From: Candidatus Gastranaerophilales bacterium
GTDB lineage: Bacteria; Cyanobacteriota; Vampirovibrionia; Gastranaerophilales; Gastranaerophilaceae
Assembly (NCBI GenBank): GCA_944324225.1
Contig: CALUVL010000012.1
Coordinates: forward strand, 1 to 63,539
DNA: 63,539 bases
Direction: 5' to 3'
This document shows, one piece after another, positions 7,714 to 23,516 of the stretch. Under the pieces are notes generated by a model, which was not told where the DNA came from, did no database searches, and saw only the letters and a program-made list of their open reading frames with translations. Made by a program: the position numbers and the translations under genes. Within the stretch, counting starts at the first letter, position 1, and each line of letters starts with the position of its first letter.

Positions 7714-7943
7714 ATAAATTCACCTCGCCAAGTAATTATATTATAAACATGTAATTCACTAAACTTTAAAAAAATATTTTGTTACAAAACTGAAAATTAT
7801 TAGGATATCCATGTTGCATGCCTTTTCTTGTTGTTGTAAAATTAGAGAACGAACCATGCTTTAAATATTTTTATTTATGGGGATGATTTTTAAATTTTTA
7901 ATTTGATGAATAAGAAGACTTGGACTAATAAATGGAGGTTAGT

Positions 7944-9980
7944 GTGAACTTAGTGGAAGAAAAATTGAATTTATCCGAAAATGCAATAAAAGTTCTAGAA
8001 AGAAGATACTTGAAAAGGGACAAAGACGGAAATTGCACAGAAAAACCTGCTGATATGTTCAGACGTGTGGCTCTTGCAATTGCATCAGGCGATTTGAAAT
8101 TTGGCAAAACTCAGGCTGAAGTTGAAAAACTTGCTGACAGATTTTATGATTTTATAACAAAATGCTACTTTATGCCGAACTCTCCGACCTTGATGAATGC
8201 CGGAAGAGAACTCGGACAGCTTGCTGCCTGTTTTGTTCTTCCTGTTGAAGACAGCCTTGAAGGAATTTTTGAAACCGTTAAAAATACGGCATTAATTCAC
8301 AAATCAGGTGGTGGAACAGGTTTTTCTTTCTCAAGATTACGCCCCAAAAACAGTGTTGTAAGATCAACCATGGGTGTTTCATCAGGCCCTGTTTCATTTA
8401 TGGAAGTATTTAACGCTGCAACCGAAGCGGTTAAGCAGGGCGGTACAAGACGCGGCGCAAACATGGGTATCTTAAGAGTTGACCACCCGGATATCTTAGA
8501 CTTTATTAACTGCAAATCCGATAACAATAAATTGAACAACTTTAATATTTCTGTTGCAATTACTGACAAATTTATGGAAGCACTCAAAAAAGGCGAAGAT
8601 TATGATTTAGTTAATCCTCAGAACAATCAGGTTGTTGCAAGATTAAGTGCTAAAAAAGTATTTGACCTTATTGTGGACGGCGCATGGAGAAATGGTGAAC
8701 CCGGAATCATCTTTATTGATAAAATGAATGCAGATAACCCGACTCCTTTGGTTGGTCAGATTGAATCAACCAATCCTTGTGGTGAAGTTCCGCTTCTTGC
8801 TTACGAAGCCTGCAACTTAGGTTCTATAAATCTTGGCAGAATGGTTATTGATGGAGCTAACGGATCTGAAGTTGACTGGAAAACTTTAGCGGAAACAACA
8901 AGAACTGCAATCAGATTCTTAGACAACGTAATCGCCGTAAATAACTATCCGCTTCCGCAGATTTCCGAAATGGTTCAGAATAACCGCAAAATCGGACTCG
9001 GTGTTATGGGCTGGGCTGATATGCTTATGAAAATGGGAATTTCCTACAGCTCGGAAGAAGGTACAAAACTCGCTTCTCAGGTTATGGAATTTATTGATTA
9101 CGAATCAAAATGCGAATCCATTGAACTTTCAAAAGAAAGAGGCAGATTTAACAACTTCAAAGGAAGCGTTTACGACGGCAAAAACTTCCTCTACAACAAA
9201 TATAAAGGAAAATCTGCCGGAAAAATTTCCGATGAACAATGGAAAGAGCTGGATGCGCAAATTGAAAAATTCGGAATCCGTAACGCAACTACAACCTGTA
9301 TTGCGCCGACAGGTACAATTTCAATGATAGCCGGAGCCTCAGGCGGTGTTGAACCTCTGTTCGGGCTTGTATTCTCAAGACTGATTATGGACGGAACTGA
9401 AATGCTTGAAATTAATCCGATTTTTAAAGAATACGCTATTAAACACGGATTCTATTCTGAAGAATTAATGAAAGAAATTGCTAAAACCGGTTCTGTTGCT
9501 CATGTTGATAACGTTCCGGCAGATGCCAAAAAGATTTTCGTTACGGCGCATGACGTTTCTCCATACTGGCACGTTAAAATGCAGGCTGCTTTCCAGCTTC
9601 ATACAGACAACGCTGTTTCTAAAACTGTAAACTTTGAAGAACACGCAACCCGTGAAGATATTGAACAGGCTTATGTTCTGGCTTACGAAAATAACCTAAA
9701 AGGTATCACTGTTTACAGAAACAACAGCCGTCAGTTCCAGCCTATGAACCTTGATTCTAAAAAATCAGAAGCTCAGGTTGAGGCTGAAAAATCTATGAAA
9801 ACTGTTTCTGAGCCTGAAAAGAAGGCTGAAGTTACAAATCCGATAAAAGAAGAAAAAACGGAAGATTACAATCCGACAGGCGAAATTAAAACAGTTAAGT
9901 GCCCTGAATGCGGAAACGAAATTCAGATGGCTGAAGGCTGCTTCATCTGCCTCAAGTGTGGTTATTCCGGCTGTTCATAG
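7944..9980 (+). CDS. nrdJ: Adenosylcobalamin-dependent (class II) ribonucleotide reductase
   Basis: Reduces ribonucleotides to deoxyribonucleotides using adenosylcobalamin, independent of oxygen. Visible motifs are [18 protein letters not shown] with the first redox cysteine, [34 protein letters not shown] with the radical-site cysteine, [14 protein letters not shown] and [18 protein letters not shown]. The C-terminus ends in a zinc-ribbon-like CPECG...CLKCG segment. I prefer the GTG at 7944, because GGAGG (7934-7938) sits 5 nt before it and overlaps the only upstream ATG (7932), which would add four residues. No cobalamin riboswitch is seen upstream. The paired class III system is at 20.8-23.4 kb. 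Confidence 0.95.
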
Positions 9981-20753: not shown

Positions 20754-21437
20754 TTAACCTCTTAGTTTTAGTTCTTTGAAATCATTTTTTATTGTTTTAA
20801 TAATTACAGCAAATTCATTTTCCGAATAGGTGTTTTCTTTTGTAAAGTCAGGATTAAGTGTTTTTGCAGGGACAAACTTCTGCAGGTAATATTTTTTTGC
20901 CCCTTTAAGCATCTGCGCAATATTTTCAAAATCTTCAATTTTCAACTGTGATTTGACGACGGTTGTCCTGAATTCGTAATCAATGCCGGAATTTTTAATT
21001 AGTTTAATACTTTTTAGAATTTTTTCTGTATCAATTTGAGAGGATGATATTTTCTGATATTTTTCAAGCGGGCCTTTAATATCCATTGCAATATAGTCAA
21101 TATGTGGTAGAAGTTTTTCAATGATTTCCGGAAAACTTCCGTTTGTGTCGAGTTTAACCAGAAAGCCAAGTTTTTTAATTGCTATAATAAATTCTTTTAA
21201 ATCTTTTTGCAGGCAAGGTTCCCCGCCCGTAATCACGACAGCGTCAAGTTTTCCTTTGCGTGTTTTCAAAAACTCAAGGAAATCGGAAGCCTTAAGCTCC
21301 TGATTTCCCTGAGTGTCGAAAAGTTCCGGATTATGGCAGTATCCGCATCTGAAATTACAGCCTTTTGTGAAAACGATTGCGCTGATTTTTTCGGGATAAT
21401 CCAGTAAAGATGTTTTTTGTATTCCGCCTATGTTCAT
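20754..21437 (-). CDS. nrdG: Anaerobic ribonucleotide reductase activating protein
   Basis: Radical SAM enzyme that installs the glycyl radical in NrdD. The CxxxCxxC cluster motif is CNFRCGYC (Cys27, 31, 34), preceded by SLLDYPEKISAIVFTKG. ITGGEPCLQKDL and the LDTNGSFPEII segment are family-like. I start at ATG 21437, with AGGT upstream; the frame stays open about 50 bp further 5', but that part overlaps a palindromic repeat remnant at 21447-21531 and is not family sequence. It follows nrdD in the same operon. 227 residues, typical of the NrdG2 type. Confidence 0.9.
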   Translation of the reverse strand: MNIGGIQKTSLLDYPEKISAIVFTKGCNFRCGYCHNPELFDTQGNQELKASDFLEFLKTRKGKLDAVVITGGEPCLQKDLKEFIIAIKKLGFLVKLDTNGSFPEIIEKLLPHIDYIAMDIKGPLEKYQKISSSQIDTEKILKSIKLIKNSGIDYEFRTTVVKSQLKIEDFENIAQMLKGAKKYYLQKFVPAKTLNPDFTKENTYSENEFAVIIKTIKNDFKELKLRG

Positions 21438-21446
21438 ATTTTTACC

Positions 21447-21531
21447 TGTTCTGACATTCTGAACCGGAATCCGTTGAGCCAAACTCAAAACGTGATTTTG
21501 CCCCTGTCCGGTGTTTCAGAATTTCAGGATG
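21447..21531. repeat. Palindromic repeat remnant between nrdD and nrdG
   Basis: TGACATTCTGAAC near the left end and GTTTCAGAATTTCAGGATG near the right end match the ends and interior of the palindromic repeat at 2974-3121. The insertion lies in the 99-nt nrdD-nrdG gap and probably does not interrupt the operon. Confidence 0.5.
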
Positions 21532-21536
21532 TAATT

Positions 21537-23375
21537 TTACTCCTGAATTAAAAAAGTTTTTCTGTCGGAAAATTCTTTTTGTTTACCTTTGTTCCACTGA
21601 TTGACAGGGCGGATGTAGCCGACAACACGTGAGTAAACTTCACAGGCTGAGCCGCATTCAGGACAGGTAAAGTGTTCTCCTGCAACATAGCCGTGGTTAG
21701 GACATGTGCTGAATGTCGGCGAAAATGTAAAATAAGGCAGTTTGTAATTATTACAGATCTTTTTAACGAGATTTTTTACCGTATTCAGGTCGTATATTCT
21801 TTCACCCGCAAAAATATGAACAACTGTTCCGCCCGTGTATTTGGTCTGCAAGTCGTCCTGATGGTCAAGAACTTCAAAGATATCATCCGTGTAATTTACT
21901 GGAAGCTGGGTTGAATTTGTGTAGTATGGATATTTATTTCTGTCGCATTTGGCAAGTCGGTAGGATGTTCCTTCTCCAGGAGTTGCTTCTAGATTGTAAT
22001 TGTTGCCGGTTTCTTTTTGAAATTCAATTATTTTTGCCCTCATAAAGTCCATAACTTCAATTGCAAAATGTTTCCCTCTGAAACTTCCGATGTCGGTTTT
22101 TAAAAAGTTTATACAGGCCTCATTCATTCCGATAAGCCCTATTGTGGAAAAGTGATTTTTCCAGTAAACTCCAAATCTTGCCTTTATATCTCTCAAGTAA
22201 AATTTTGTGTACGGATAAAGATTTTTTTCAGTGTAATCTTCAAGAAGTTTGCGCTTGATTTCAAGACTATCTTTTGCAAGAACCATTTTCTCTTCAAGTT
22301 GTTTAAAAAATTCTTCTTTTGTAGACACTTTTTGTGCAATTCTGGGGAGGTTAATTGTCACAACCCCGACCGAACCCGTAAGAGGATTTGAGCCGAAAAG
22401 TCCACCGCCTCTGTATTCAAGTTCTCTGTTGTCAATTCGGAGTCTACAGCACATTGATCGGGCATCCTCCGGCGACATGTCAGAGTTTATAAAGTTTGAA
22501 AAATAAGGAATCCCGTATTTGGCTGTCATTTCCCAGAGCCCGTCAATGTTTTTGTTTTCCCAGTCAAAGTCTTTTGTAATGTTATAAGTAGGAATCGGGA
22601 ATGTAAAAACACGCCCTGAATTGTCCCCTTCAAGCATAATTTCAAAAAACGCTTTGTTAATCATATCCATTTCAGGCTGGAAATTTTTGTAGGTATCTTC
22701 CATAAATTTTCCACCGATGATTACTGCTTGATCGGCATAGTAAGACGGTACAGTCAAATCCATTGTTATATTTGTAAATGGGGTCTGAAATCCAACACGT
22801 GTCGGAACGTTCATATTAAAGATAAATTCTTGCATTGCCTGTTTTACCTGTTCGTAAGTAAGGTTGTCATATTTTATAAAAGGTGCAAGAAGTGTGTCAA
22901 AGTTTGAAAATGCCTGAGCGCCTGCTGCTTCTCCCTGCATTGTGTACATAAAATTGACAATTTGCCCGAGGGCTGTTCTAAAGTGTTTTGGAGGTGCGCT
23001 TTCAATTTTGCCCTTAACCCCTCTGAAACCTTCCATCAGCAAGTCTTTCAAATCCCAGCCCACACAGTAGACTGAAATTATATTCAAATCATGAATATGA
23101 ATATCTCCGCTGATGTGCGCATTTCTTATATCTGCGGGGTAAACCCTGTTCAGCCAGTAATTTTTGCTGATTTCCGAGGCAATGTAGTTGTTCAGCCCCT
23201 GAATTGAGTAAGTCATGTTCGAATTTTCTTTAACTTTCCAATCAACCTGTTTCAGGTAATTTTCTACAAGTTCAACATTTGAATCTTTTACCTGAGTCAA
23301 AGCATTTGAAATAAAAACTTTTTTAGTCGTGTCTAAGGCGACAACATTGTTGTCTTTGATAACAGTATTTTTCAT
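21537..23375 (-). CDS. nrdD: Anaerobic (class III) ribonucleoside-triphosphate reductase
   Basis: Glycyl-radical enzyme that makes dNTPs without oxygen or B12. The glycyl radical site is RVVGYIRPVNQW with Gly586 near the C-terminus. A zinc-binding segment precedes it (CPNHGY...CPECG). Other family motifs are HISGDIHIHDL, MNVPTRVGFQTPFTN and the active-site CCRLRIDNREL. The 612 residues are shorter than the Escherichia coli enzyme, and no N-terminal ATP-cone is visible, so allosteric activity control may be missing. The leader is a cobalamin-riboswitch candidate. It is followed by nrdG. Confidence 0.95.
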   Translation of the reverse strand: MKNTVIKDNNVVALDTTKKVFISNALTQVKDSNVELVENYLKQVDWKVKENSNMTYSIQGLNNYIASEISKNYWLNRVYPADIRNAHISGDIHIHDLNIISVYCVGWDLKDLLMEGFRGVKGKIESAPPKHFRTALGQIVNFMYTMQGEAAGAQAFSNFDTLLAPFIKYDNLTYEQVKQAMQEFIFNMNVPTRVGFQTPFTNITMDLTVPSYYADQAVIIGGKFMEDTYKNFQPEMDMINKAFFEIMLEGDNSGRVFTFPIPTYNITKDFDWENKNIDGLWEMTAKYGIPYFSNFINSDMSPEDARSMCCRLRIDNRELEYRGGGLFGSNPLTGSVGVVTINLPRIAQKVSTKEEFFKQLEEKMVLAKDSLEIKRKLLEDYTEKNLYPYTKFYLRDIKARFGVYWKNHFSTIGLIGMNEACINFLKTDIGSFRGKHFAIEVMDFMRAKIIEFQKETGNNYNLEATPGEGTSYRLAKCDRNKYPYYTNSTQLPVNYTDDIFEVLDHQDDLQTKYTGGTVVHIFAGERIYDLNTVKNLVKKICNNYKLPYFTFSPTFSTCPNHGYVAGEHFTCPECGSACEVYSRVVGYIRPVNQWNKGKQKEFSDRKTFLIQE

Positions 23376-23480
23376 AAAAAAATCTCCCAGATTTCCGTGG
23401 TAACATAACTAAAATAAGCATTCCGACTGTAACGGCTGCGGTCCAGTGTGGGAATTTCACCCATGCTTTCCTTAAATTAG
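23376..23480 (-). promoter_or_regulatory. Cobalamin riboswitch candidate in the nrdD leader
   Basis: On the minus strand the leader shows AAAGCAT...ATGCTT (outer P3-like stem) enclosing GGGTGAAATTCCC, CTG-GACCG-CAG (P5-like, with the conserved loop) and CCG-TTACAGT-CGG (P6-like). This matches the order and sequence of the B12 riboswitch core (GGTGAAA..CC, G-CCG-CAG, ACTGT/ACAGT). A downstream CCA-CGGAAATC-TGG hairpin could form the kissing partner (CGG with CCG). Its 3' arm overlaps the GGGAG ribosome binding site, so control of translation start is likely. It is compact, like short cobalamin riboswitches. The assignment rests on eye matching. Confidence 0.75.
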
Positions 23481-23487
23481 TAAACCA

Positions 23488-23516
23488 ATTTTATAATTTT
23501 AATTAAAATTTGTCAA
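23488..23516 (-). promoter_or_regulatory. nrdD promoter (sigma-70 type)
   Basis: On the minus strand TTGACA (23516-23511) is followed after 17 nt by TAAAAT (23493-23488). It places the RNA start near 23480, just ahead of the riboswitch-like leader. It is divergent from the atpD promoter. Confidence 0.7.

Follow-up and report, generated by a model that had tools for sequence, protein, structure and literature searches.

A predicted class II cobalamin riboswitch before the class III ribonucleotide reductase operon nrdDG, conserved in Gastranaerophilales

How might a bacterium that encodes both a B12-dependent and a B12-independent ribonucleotide reductase decide which one to produce? The question is raised by a window of 63,539 nucleotides (the whole stretch of DNA that was analysed) from a genome of 1.93 Mb and 99% completeness, whose nearest NrdD relatives belong to Candidatus Gastranaerophilales. 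A sequence-only reading had placed a cobalamin riboswitch in front of nrdD, and had proposed that nrdDG is off when B12 is present and NrdJ serves, and turns on without B12. The reductase genes, all above curated cut-offs in profile searches, are listed below.

7932 to 9980, plus strand: nrdJ, adenosylcobalamin-dependent class II ribonucleotide reductase (NF006417, 1005 bits, cut-off 961; TIGR02504, 745.7 bits)
20754 to 21488, minus strand: nrdG, NrdD-activating radical SAM protein (TIGR02495 NrdG2, 215.3 bits, cut-off 131)
21537 to 23375, minus strand: nrdD, class III anaerobic ribonucleotide reductase of 612 aa (NF006126, 986.9 bits; TIGR02487, 587 bits)

The B12-dependent enzyme is thus encoded in the same window, as had been stated, and a class I small subunit was not detected in this genome. 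The nrdG reading frame was opened at TTG, an internal start being also possible. The NF006126 match to NrdD covers profile positions 100-682 only, the N-terminal ATP-cone region being missing; NrdD of this clade, at 612 aa, is without this region, which most NrdD relatives in the order possess (about 714-756 aa). A Pfam search of the genome found no CobS, PF01923 or FecCD-type (FecCD/BtuC) permease, and two CobA/BtuR corrinoid adenosyltransferases are encoded. This gene set suggests that the organism probably relies on external corrinoid, which it adenosylates; the lack of a CobS match, the two adenosyltransferases and the undetected class I small subunit fit a corrinoid user dependent on supply.

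From 23516 to 23376 the minus strand holds, in this order, a promoter, an aptamer, a short platform and nrdD. The first two and the parts of the aptamer are given here.

23488 to 23516, minus strand: sigma-A-type promoter, TTGACA (23516-23511), 17-nt spacer, TAAAAT (23493-23488), from the sequence and relatives
23406 to 23483, minus strand: predicted cobalamin class II (AdoCbl-II, RF01689) aptamer, from cmscan (33.8 bits) and covariation
23471 to 23481, minus strand: 5' strand of the closing helices, ACUAA (23481-23477) and UAAG (23474-23471), partner 23418-23408
23450 to 23462, minus strand: P4 hairpin GGG-UGAAAUU-CCC, from cmscan, alignment and covariation
23436 to 23446, minus strand: P5 hairpin CUG-GACCG-CAG, with L5 = GACCG (23443-23439) as kissing partner of L13, from cmscan and kissing tests
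23423 to 23435, minus strand: P6 hairpin CCG-UUACAGU-CGG, followed by junction J6/3 AAUG (23422-23419), from cmscan and covariation
23408 to 23418, minus strand: 3' strand of the closing helices, CUUA (23418-23415) and UUAGU (23412-23408), from covariation

The promoter lies directly before the element exactly as had been described, and its -35 and -10 boxes, the 17-nt spacing and the gap before the aptamer (about 4 nt) are the same in most relatives inspected. The aptamer model starts 4 nt past the -10 box and ends 30 nt ahead of nrdD; the predicted transcription start would fall at about the first aptamer base.

The riboswitch-like core noticed earlier, whose GGTGAAA corresponds to the P4 hairpin, belongs to a full-length match to RF01689 of clan CL00101 (model positions 1-81/81) at 23483-23406 minus, with 33.8 bits and an E-value of 3.1e-6 in a cmscan search of 501 bases, although this score sits just below the gathering score of the family. 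A cmscan of the whole window at gathering threshold gave zero Rfam matches because the RF01689 cut-off is 36.5 bits; with an E-value of 3e-6 at the locus, we dropped the reading of this blank as a true negative. Orthologous nrdD leaders, for example those of G023 and L103, exceed the gathering score. The large Cobalamin family RF00174 matches the leader weakly (18 bits, E 0.017), and this poor fit points to a compact class II element; the aptamer is 78 nt long and lacks the extensive peripheral domain found in class I (RF00174). Likeness to RF01689 extends to the compact four-way junction, the GGAAA and GUGAAA core, the P4-P5-P6 hairpins and the full-length alignment, whereas the nrdD leader differs in its slightly sub-threshold score, in a 3-nt L5-L13 bulge in this clade and in long loop insertions in some relatives. 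The whole genome holds two credible AdoCbl-II matches, the nrdD leader being one. A third RF01689 match (C1:196018, 25.6 bits) lies inside a sugar-kinase-like coding sequence and was judged to be due to chance.

Relatives were collected by an RF01689 search over 99 genomes, by a custom covariance model (R1) derived from 12 nrdD leaders and by an NrdD family search, giving a readable nrdD upstream region in 53 genomes, this one counted. The element stands before nrdD on the same strand in 34 of the 53. Long insertions enlarge the P6 or P4 loop of some leaders (G019, G055, G064 and G035), which R1 alone detected and Rfam missed. In G035, G039, G049, G057, G065 and G070 the element stands before nrdD genes of a second clade, whose NrdD is distant (about 26% identical). 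Leaders without the element (G016, G030, G060, G066, G072, G081 and others) gave no other riboswitch when compared with all Rfam families. In two of the latter, G066 and G060 (loci L024 and L027), nrdD genes of family f2 share another, conserved leader with a repeated TTTAGCTA(A/G)GAGTTT motif about 100-150 nt upstream, which likewise has no Rfam match. In G064 (L023, contig C7) a tiny ORF and a hairpin resembling a terminator follow the riboswitch, and nrdD lies further down behind its own Shine-Dalgarno sequence, so that the riboswitch there may act on nrdD indirectly or no longer at all.

In a model-based alignment, changes on both sides occur in 13 of 18 pairs (6.9 in shuffles), pairing holds in 93% of cells (82% in shuffles), and the covariation score of 0.335, against 0.138 for shuffles, was reached by 0/500 of them; the alignment was made to fit the structure and includes a few weak off-target rows, the margin nonetheless being large. 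All covariation measures collapse when the 3' partners are slid. The co-varying pairing consists of UAAG/CUUA plus the outer ACUAA/UUAGU helix, with two-sided changes at 8/9 pairs of these closing helices across relatives. The AAAGCAT/ATGCTT stem that the sequence-only reading had put around the core did not stand: it is the minimum-free-energy choice of single-sequence thermodynamic folding, and cannot form in, for example, G069 (AUACCAUG) or G076 (GGAAAGUCGGG). The folding energy of the leader has no advantage over shuffles (z = 0.45). With z about 0 and the AAGCAU/AUGCUU stem missing in relatives such as these, we regard single-sequence folding as uninformative; support for the element is from covariation and family match, not from fold stability. 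The covariance model, the base-pair covariation and the kept position before nrdD together support the assignment of the element as a cobalamin riboswitch.

Between the aptamer and nrdD the sequence reads UACCACGGAAAUCUGGGAGAUUUUUUUAUG and contains two further parts.

23387 to 23400, minus strand: platform, P13 CCA/UGG (23400-23398 with 23389-23387) closing L13 CGGAAAUC (23397-23390), from L5 complementarity and covariation
23384 to 23388, minus strand: Shine-Dalgarno GGGAG, partly within the P13 3' arm, 8 nt before the nrdD ATG, from the sequence

The claim that a 3' hairpin overlaps the ribosome binding site was borne out, as the P13 3' arm runs into GGGAG here and extends to the Shine-Dalgarno sequence in nearly all leaders. 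Loop L5 (GACCG) and L13 can form five Watson-Crick pairs, CCG with CGG and GA with UC, around a 3-nt AAA bulge. Most relatives have L5 GUCCG and the loop CG-A-GAC, with P13 closed by CCU/AGG, CUA/UAG, CUU/AAG, CUUA/UAAG or CUUUG/UAAAG; G032 has GUUCG with the loop CG-A-AAC, and G061, from another family, has GACCG with CGG-UU-UC. L5, L13 and P13 co-vary across relatives. A strict test, asking for L5-L13 kissing and a P13 of at least 3 bp, was passed by 29/35 leaders (mean 0.23 and maximum 3 over 500 shuffles), and was used in place of a first, loose test with GU pairs and stem slack allowed, which 32/35 leaders passed but which gave a shuffled mean of 8.3. When the L5 sequences were swapped, GACCG matched 7/7 GACCG leaders and 0/25 GUCCG leaders, and GUCCG matched 21/25 GUCCG leaders and 0/7 GACCG leaders. 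By itself P13 is weak, at about -3 kcal/mol and not better than shuffles, and therefore plausibly requires the kissing loop. For P. megaterium metE, E. coli btuB and env8HyCbl it has been established that kissing of L5 with L13 makes P13 more stable and favours terminators or hairpins at the ribosome binding site; such stabilisation of P13 and the ribosome-binding-site hairpin is the accepted route to repression, and bulged kissing loops are known among cobalamin riboswitches (PMC10653944).

The complementarity of L5 and L13, the reach of P13 to the Shine-Dalgarno sequence and the co-variation suggest that B12 binding should lock the hairpin at the ribosome binding site and turn nrdDG off. We propose that ligand binding would order the four-way junction and present L5; L5 would then kiss L13 and stabilise the otherwise weak 3-bp P13, whose 3' arm forms part of the Shine-Dalgarno sequence, so that nrdD translation would stop. 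With B12 present, dNTPs would come from NrdJ; with B12 absent, P13 would fail to hold, the ribosome binding site would be free and the B12-independent NrdDG would be made. Ligand-dependent occlusion of the ribosome binding site, i.e. repression by B12, is the parsimonious mechanism, and we consider it very probable that a class II cobalamin riboswitch in the nrdDG 5' leader represses translation when adenosylated corrinoid is present. Ligand binding, the sign of regulation and adenosylcobalamin as the natural ligand are inferred here.

A real corrinoid riboswitch could instead be selective for methyl- or aquocobalamin or for another cobamide, and so report general corrinoid supply rather than the cofactor of NrdJ. 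Class II cobalamin riboswitches do include members selective for small-upper-ligand forms, such as env8HyCbl (PMC10653944), but the partner isoenzyme NrdJ uses adenosylcobalamin, the genome encodes two corrinoid adenosyltransferases and RF01689 is named for AdoCbl, and we consider such a ligand unlikely. A bolder proposal, to which we give somewhat less credence again, is that the nrdD leaders of the order form a class II sub-type specialised for a corrinoid that is either not adenosylated or not cobalamin, with a drifted, bulged five-pair L5-L13 code (GUCCG, GUUCG, GACCG and GGCCG with matched L13 loops), which would travel as a cassette with nrdD of two distinct clades. It appears improbable that the element acts chiefly through mRNA decay or through termination of transcription at the T-rich run behind the hairpin, instead of by occlusion of the ribosome binding site. 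A U7 run does follow the Shine-Dalgarno region, preceded in this genome by an alternative hairpin, AAAUCU-GGG-AGAUUU; however, the U run is located between the Shine-Dalgarno sequence and the nrdD start codon, other relatives with L5, L13 and P13 have it interrupted or replaced (e.g. AGGAGATTAAAATTATG in G014 and AGGAGAATATATATG in G077), and the conserved feature is the Shine-Dalgarno overlap. In folding, the alternative hairpin also covers the Shine-Dalgarno sequence without ligand here and in a few neighbours, which speaks against the proposed ligand-dependent occlusion, though it is not conserved and is broken in G023 and G026. That the element is a decayed, non-functional remnant, as a score of 33.8 bits under a 36.5-bit cut-off and the loss of nrdDG in the genus (NrdD absent in 12/13 congeners, a deletion remnant in G013) might suggest, is very improbable, as neither the core positions nor the kissing pairs show any defect here, the leaders of relatives share the architecture and nrdDG is intact in this genome (G000).

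The predicted repression of nrdDG by B12 also agrees with the distribution of NrdJ. Among nrdD-bearing genomes of at least 90% completeness, the riboswitch was found in 25/31 with NrdJ and in 0/9 without it (Fisher p 1.8e-5, shared ancestry not being corrected for), and with no completeness filter in 31/40 and 3/13 respectively, again uncorrected for shared ancestry. The three riboswitch-bearing genomes without a detected NrdJ are assemblies of 66-85% completeness, and NrdJ may therefore simply be missing from them. Several NrdJ-bearing genomes, such as G060, G066, G067 and G081, have nrdD without the element, and in the class-mates G082, G087 and G092 it stands before class I nrdAB instead, with NrdJ elsewhere in the genome. 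The predicted switching between NrdJ and nrdDG is thus supported by the overlap with the ribosome binding site and by the tracking of NrdJ, and the NrdJ-lacking genomes of at least 90% completeness, being also without the switch, offer a clean comparative test of the isozyme logic.

In Streptomyces, a cobalamin riboswitch acts on class I nrdAB and B12 represses the alternative reductase; the present case would likewise be an alternative reductase repressed by B12, but of class III rather than class I. The earlier description of use on a class III operon as a less common case was fair, yet precedents exist. B12 elements before nrdDG of Desulfovibrio vulgaris and Desulfuromonas were reported with the same reasoning in 2004 (PMC545781); the operon and the proposed logic, with NrdJ preferred, are the same, and the phylum is different. 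For Propionibacterium acnes, cobalamin riboswitches were noted in 2013 on both nrdAB and nrdDG (PMC3848588), where the class III operon is likewise annotated with one and a B12-dependent NrdJ is present alongside, but class I NrdAB is also so controlled, while the genome studied here has no detected class I small subunit. For B12-independent isozymes, the principle can be traced to a comparative study which that article cites (PMC3848588).

Among 80 close NrdD loci, drawn from many phyla, R1 detected the element only in Gastranaerophilales and likely members, which suggests that the arrangement was probably acquired or evolved separately in this lineage. An Rfam gathering scan of 20 of these 80 loci, from other lineages, gave no riboswitch over threshold except in L103, which is labelled Clostridiaceae, bears the bin name GAST1 and is probably itself from Gastranaerophilales; the present case therefore looks lineage-specific. 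We found nothing specific in the literature on the regulation of B12 or ribonucleotide reductase in Gastranaerophilales or Melainabacteria. B12 control of nrdDG having been published elsewhere, what appears new is the conservation of this predicted control throughout an uncultivated order of gut bacteria, which makes it probable that DNA-precursor supply in these corrinoid-dependent organisms changes enzyme class with vitamin supply. The naturally matched L5/L13 variants also provide a ready test set for the coupling of binding to occlusion of the ribosome binding site in cobalamin riboswitches.

Within the genus, the congener G013 (L180, contig C75, 1030-1650) has an internal deletion in nrdDG with the aptamer still intact: about 144 nrdD codons run straight into the nrdG tail, although an assembly fault is possible. 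NrdD is missing altogether from the remaining 12 congeners, and the genus seems to be losing nrdDG.

The second class II cobalamin riboswitch of this genome (L066:4300-6659, G000:C11:19299-21661) stands before an operon of uncharacterised proteins, and the pair also occurs in many relatives (L067:3280-5499; loci L036-L065). The operon encodes a protein of about 230 aa with CPHGLPxGACPICNGMGGGG, followed by one of about 500 aa, neither of which scores above any Pfam or NCBIfam cut-off. As no FecCD/BtuC permease was found in the genome, this operon could encode an undescribed system for taking up or handling corrinoids. In G019 (L067, contig C8, 3020-3440) the leaders of nrdDG and of this operon lie back to back on opposite strands, with one cobalamin riboswitch each.
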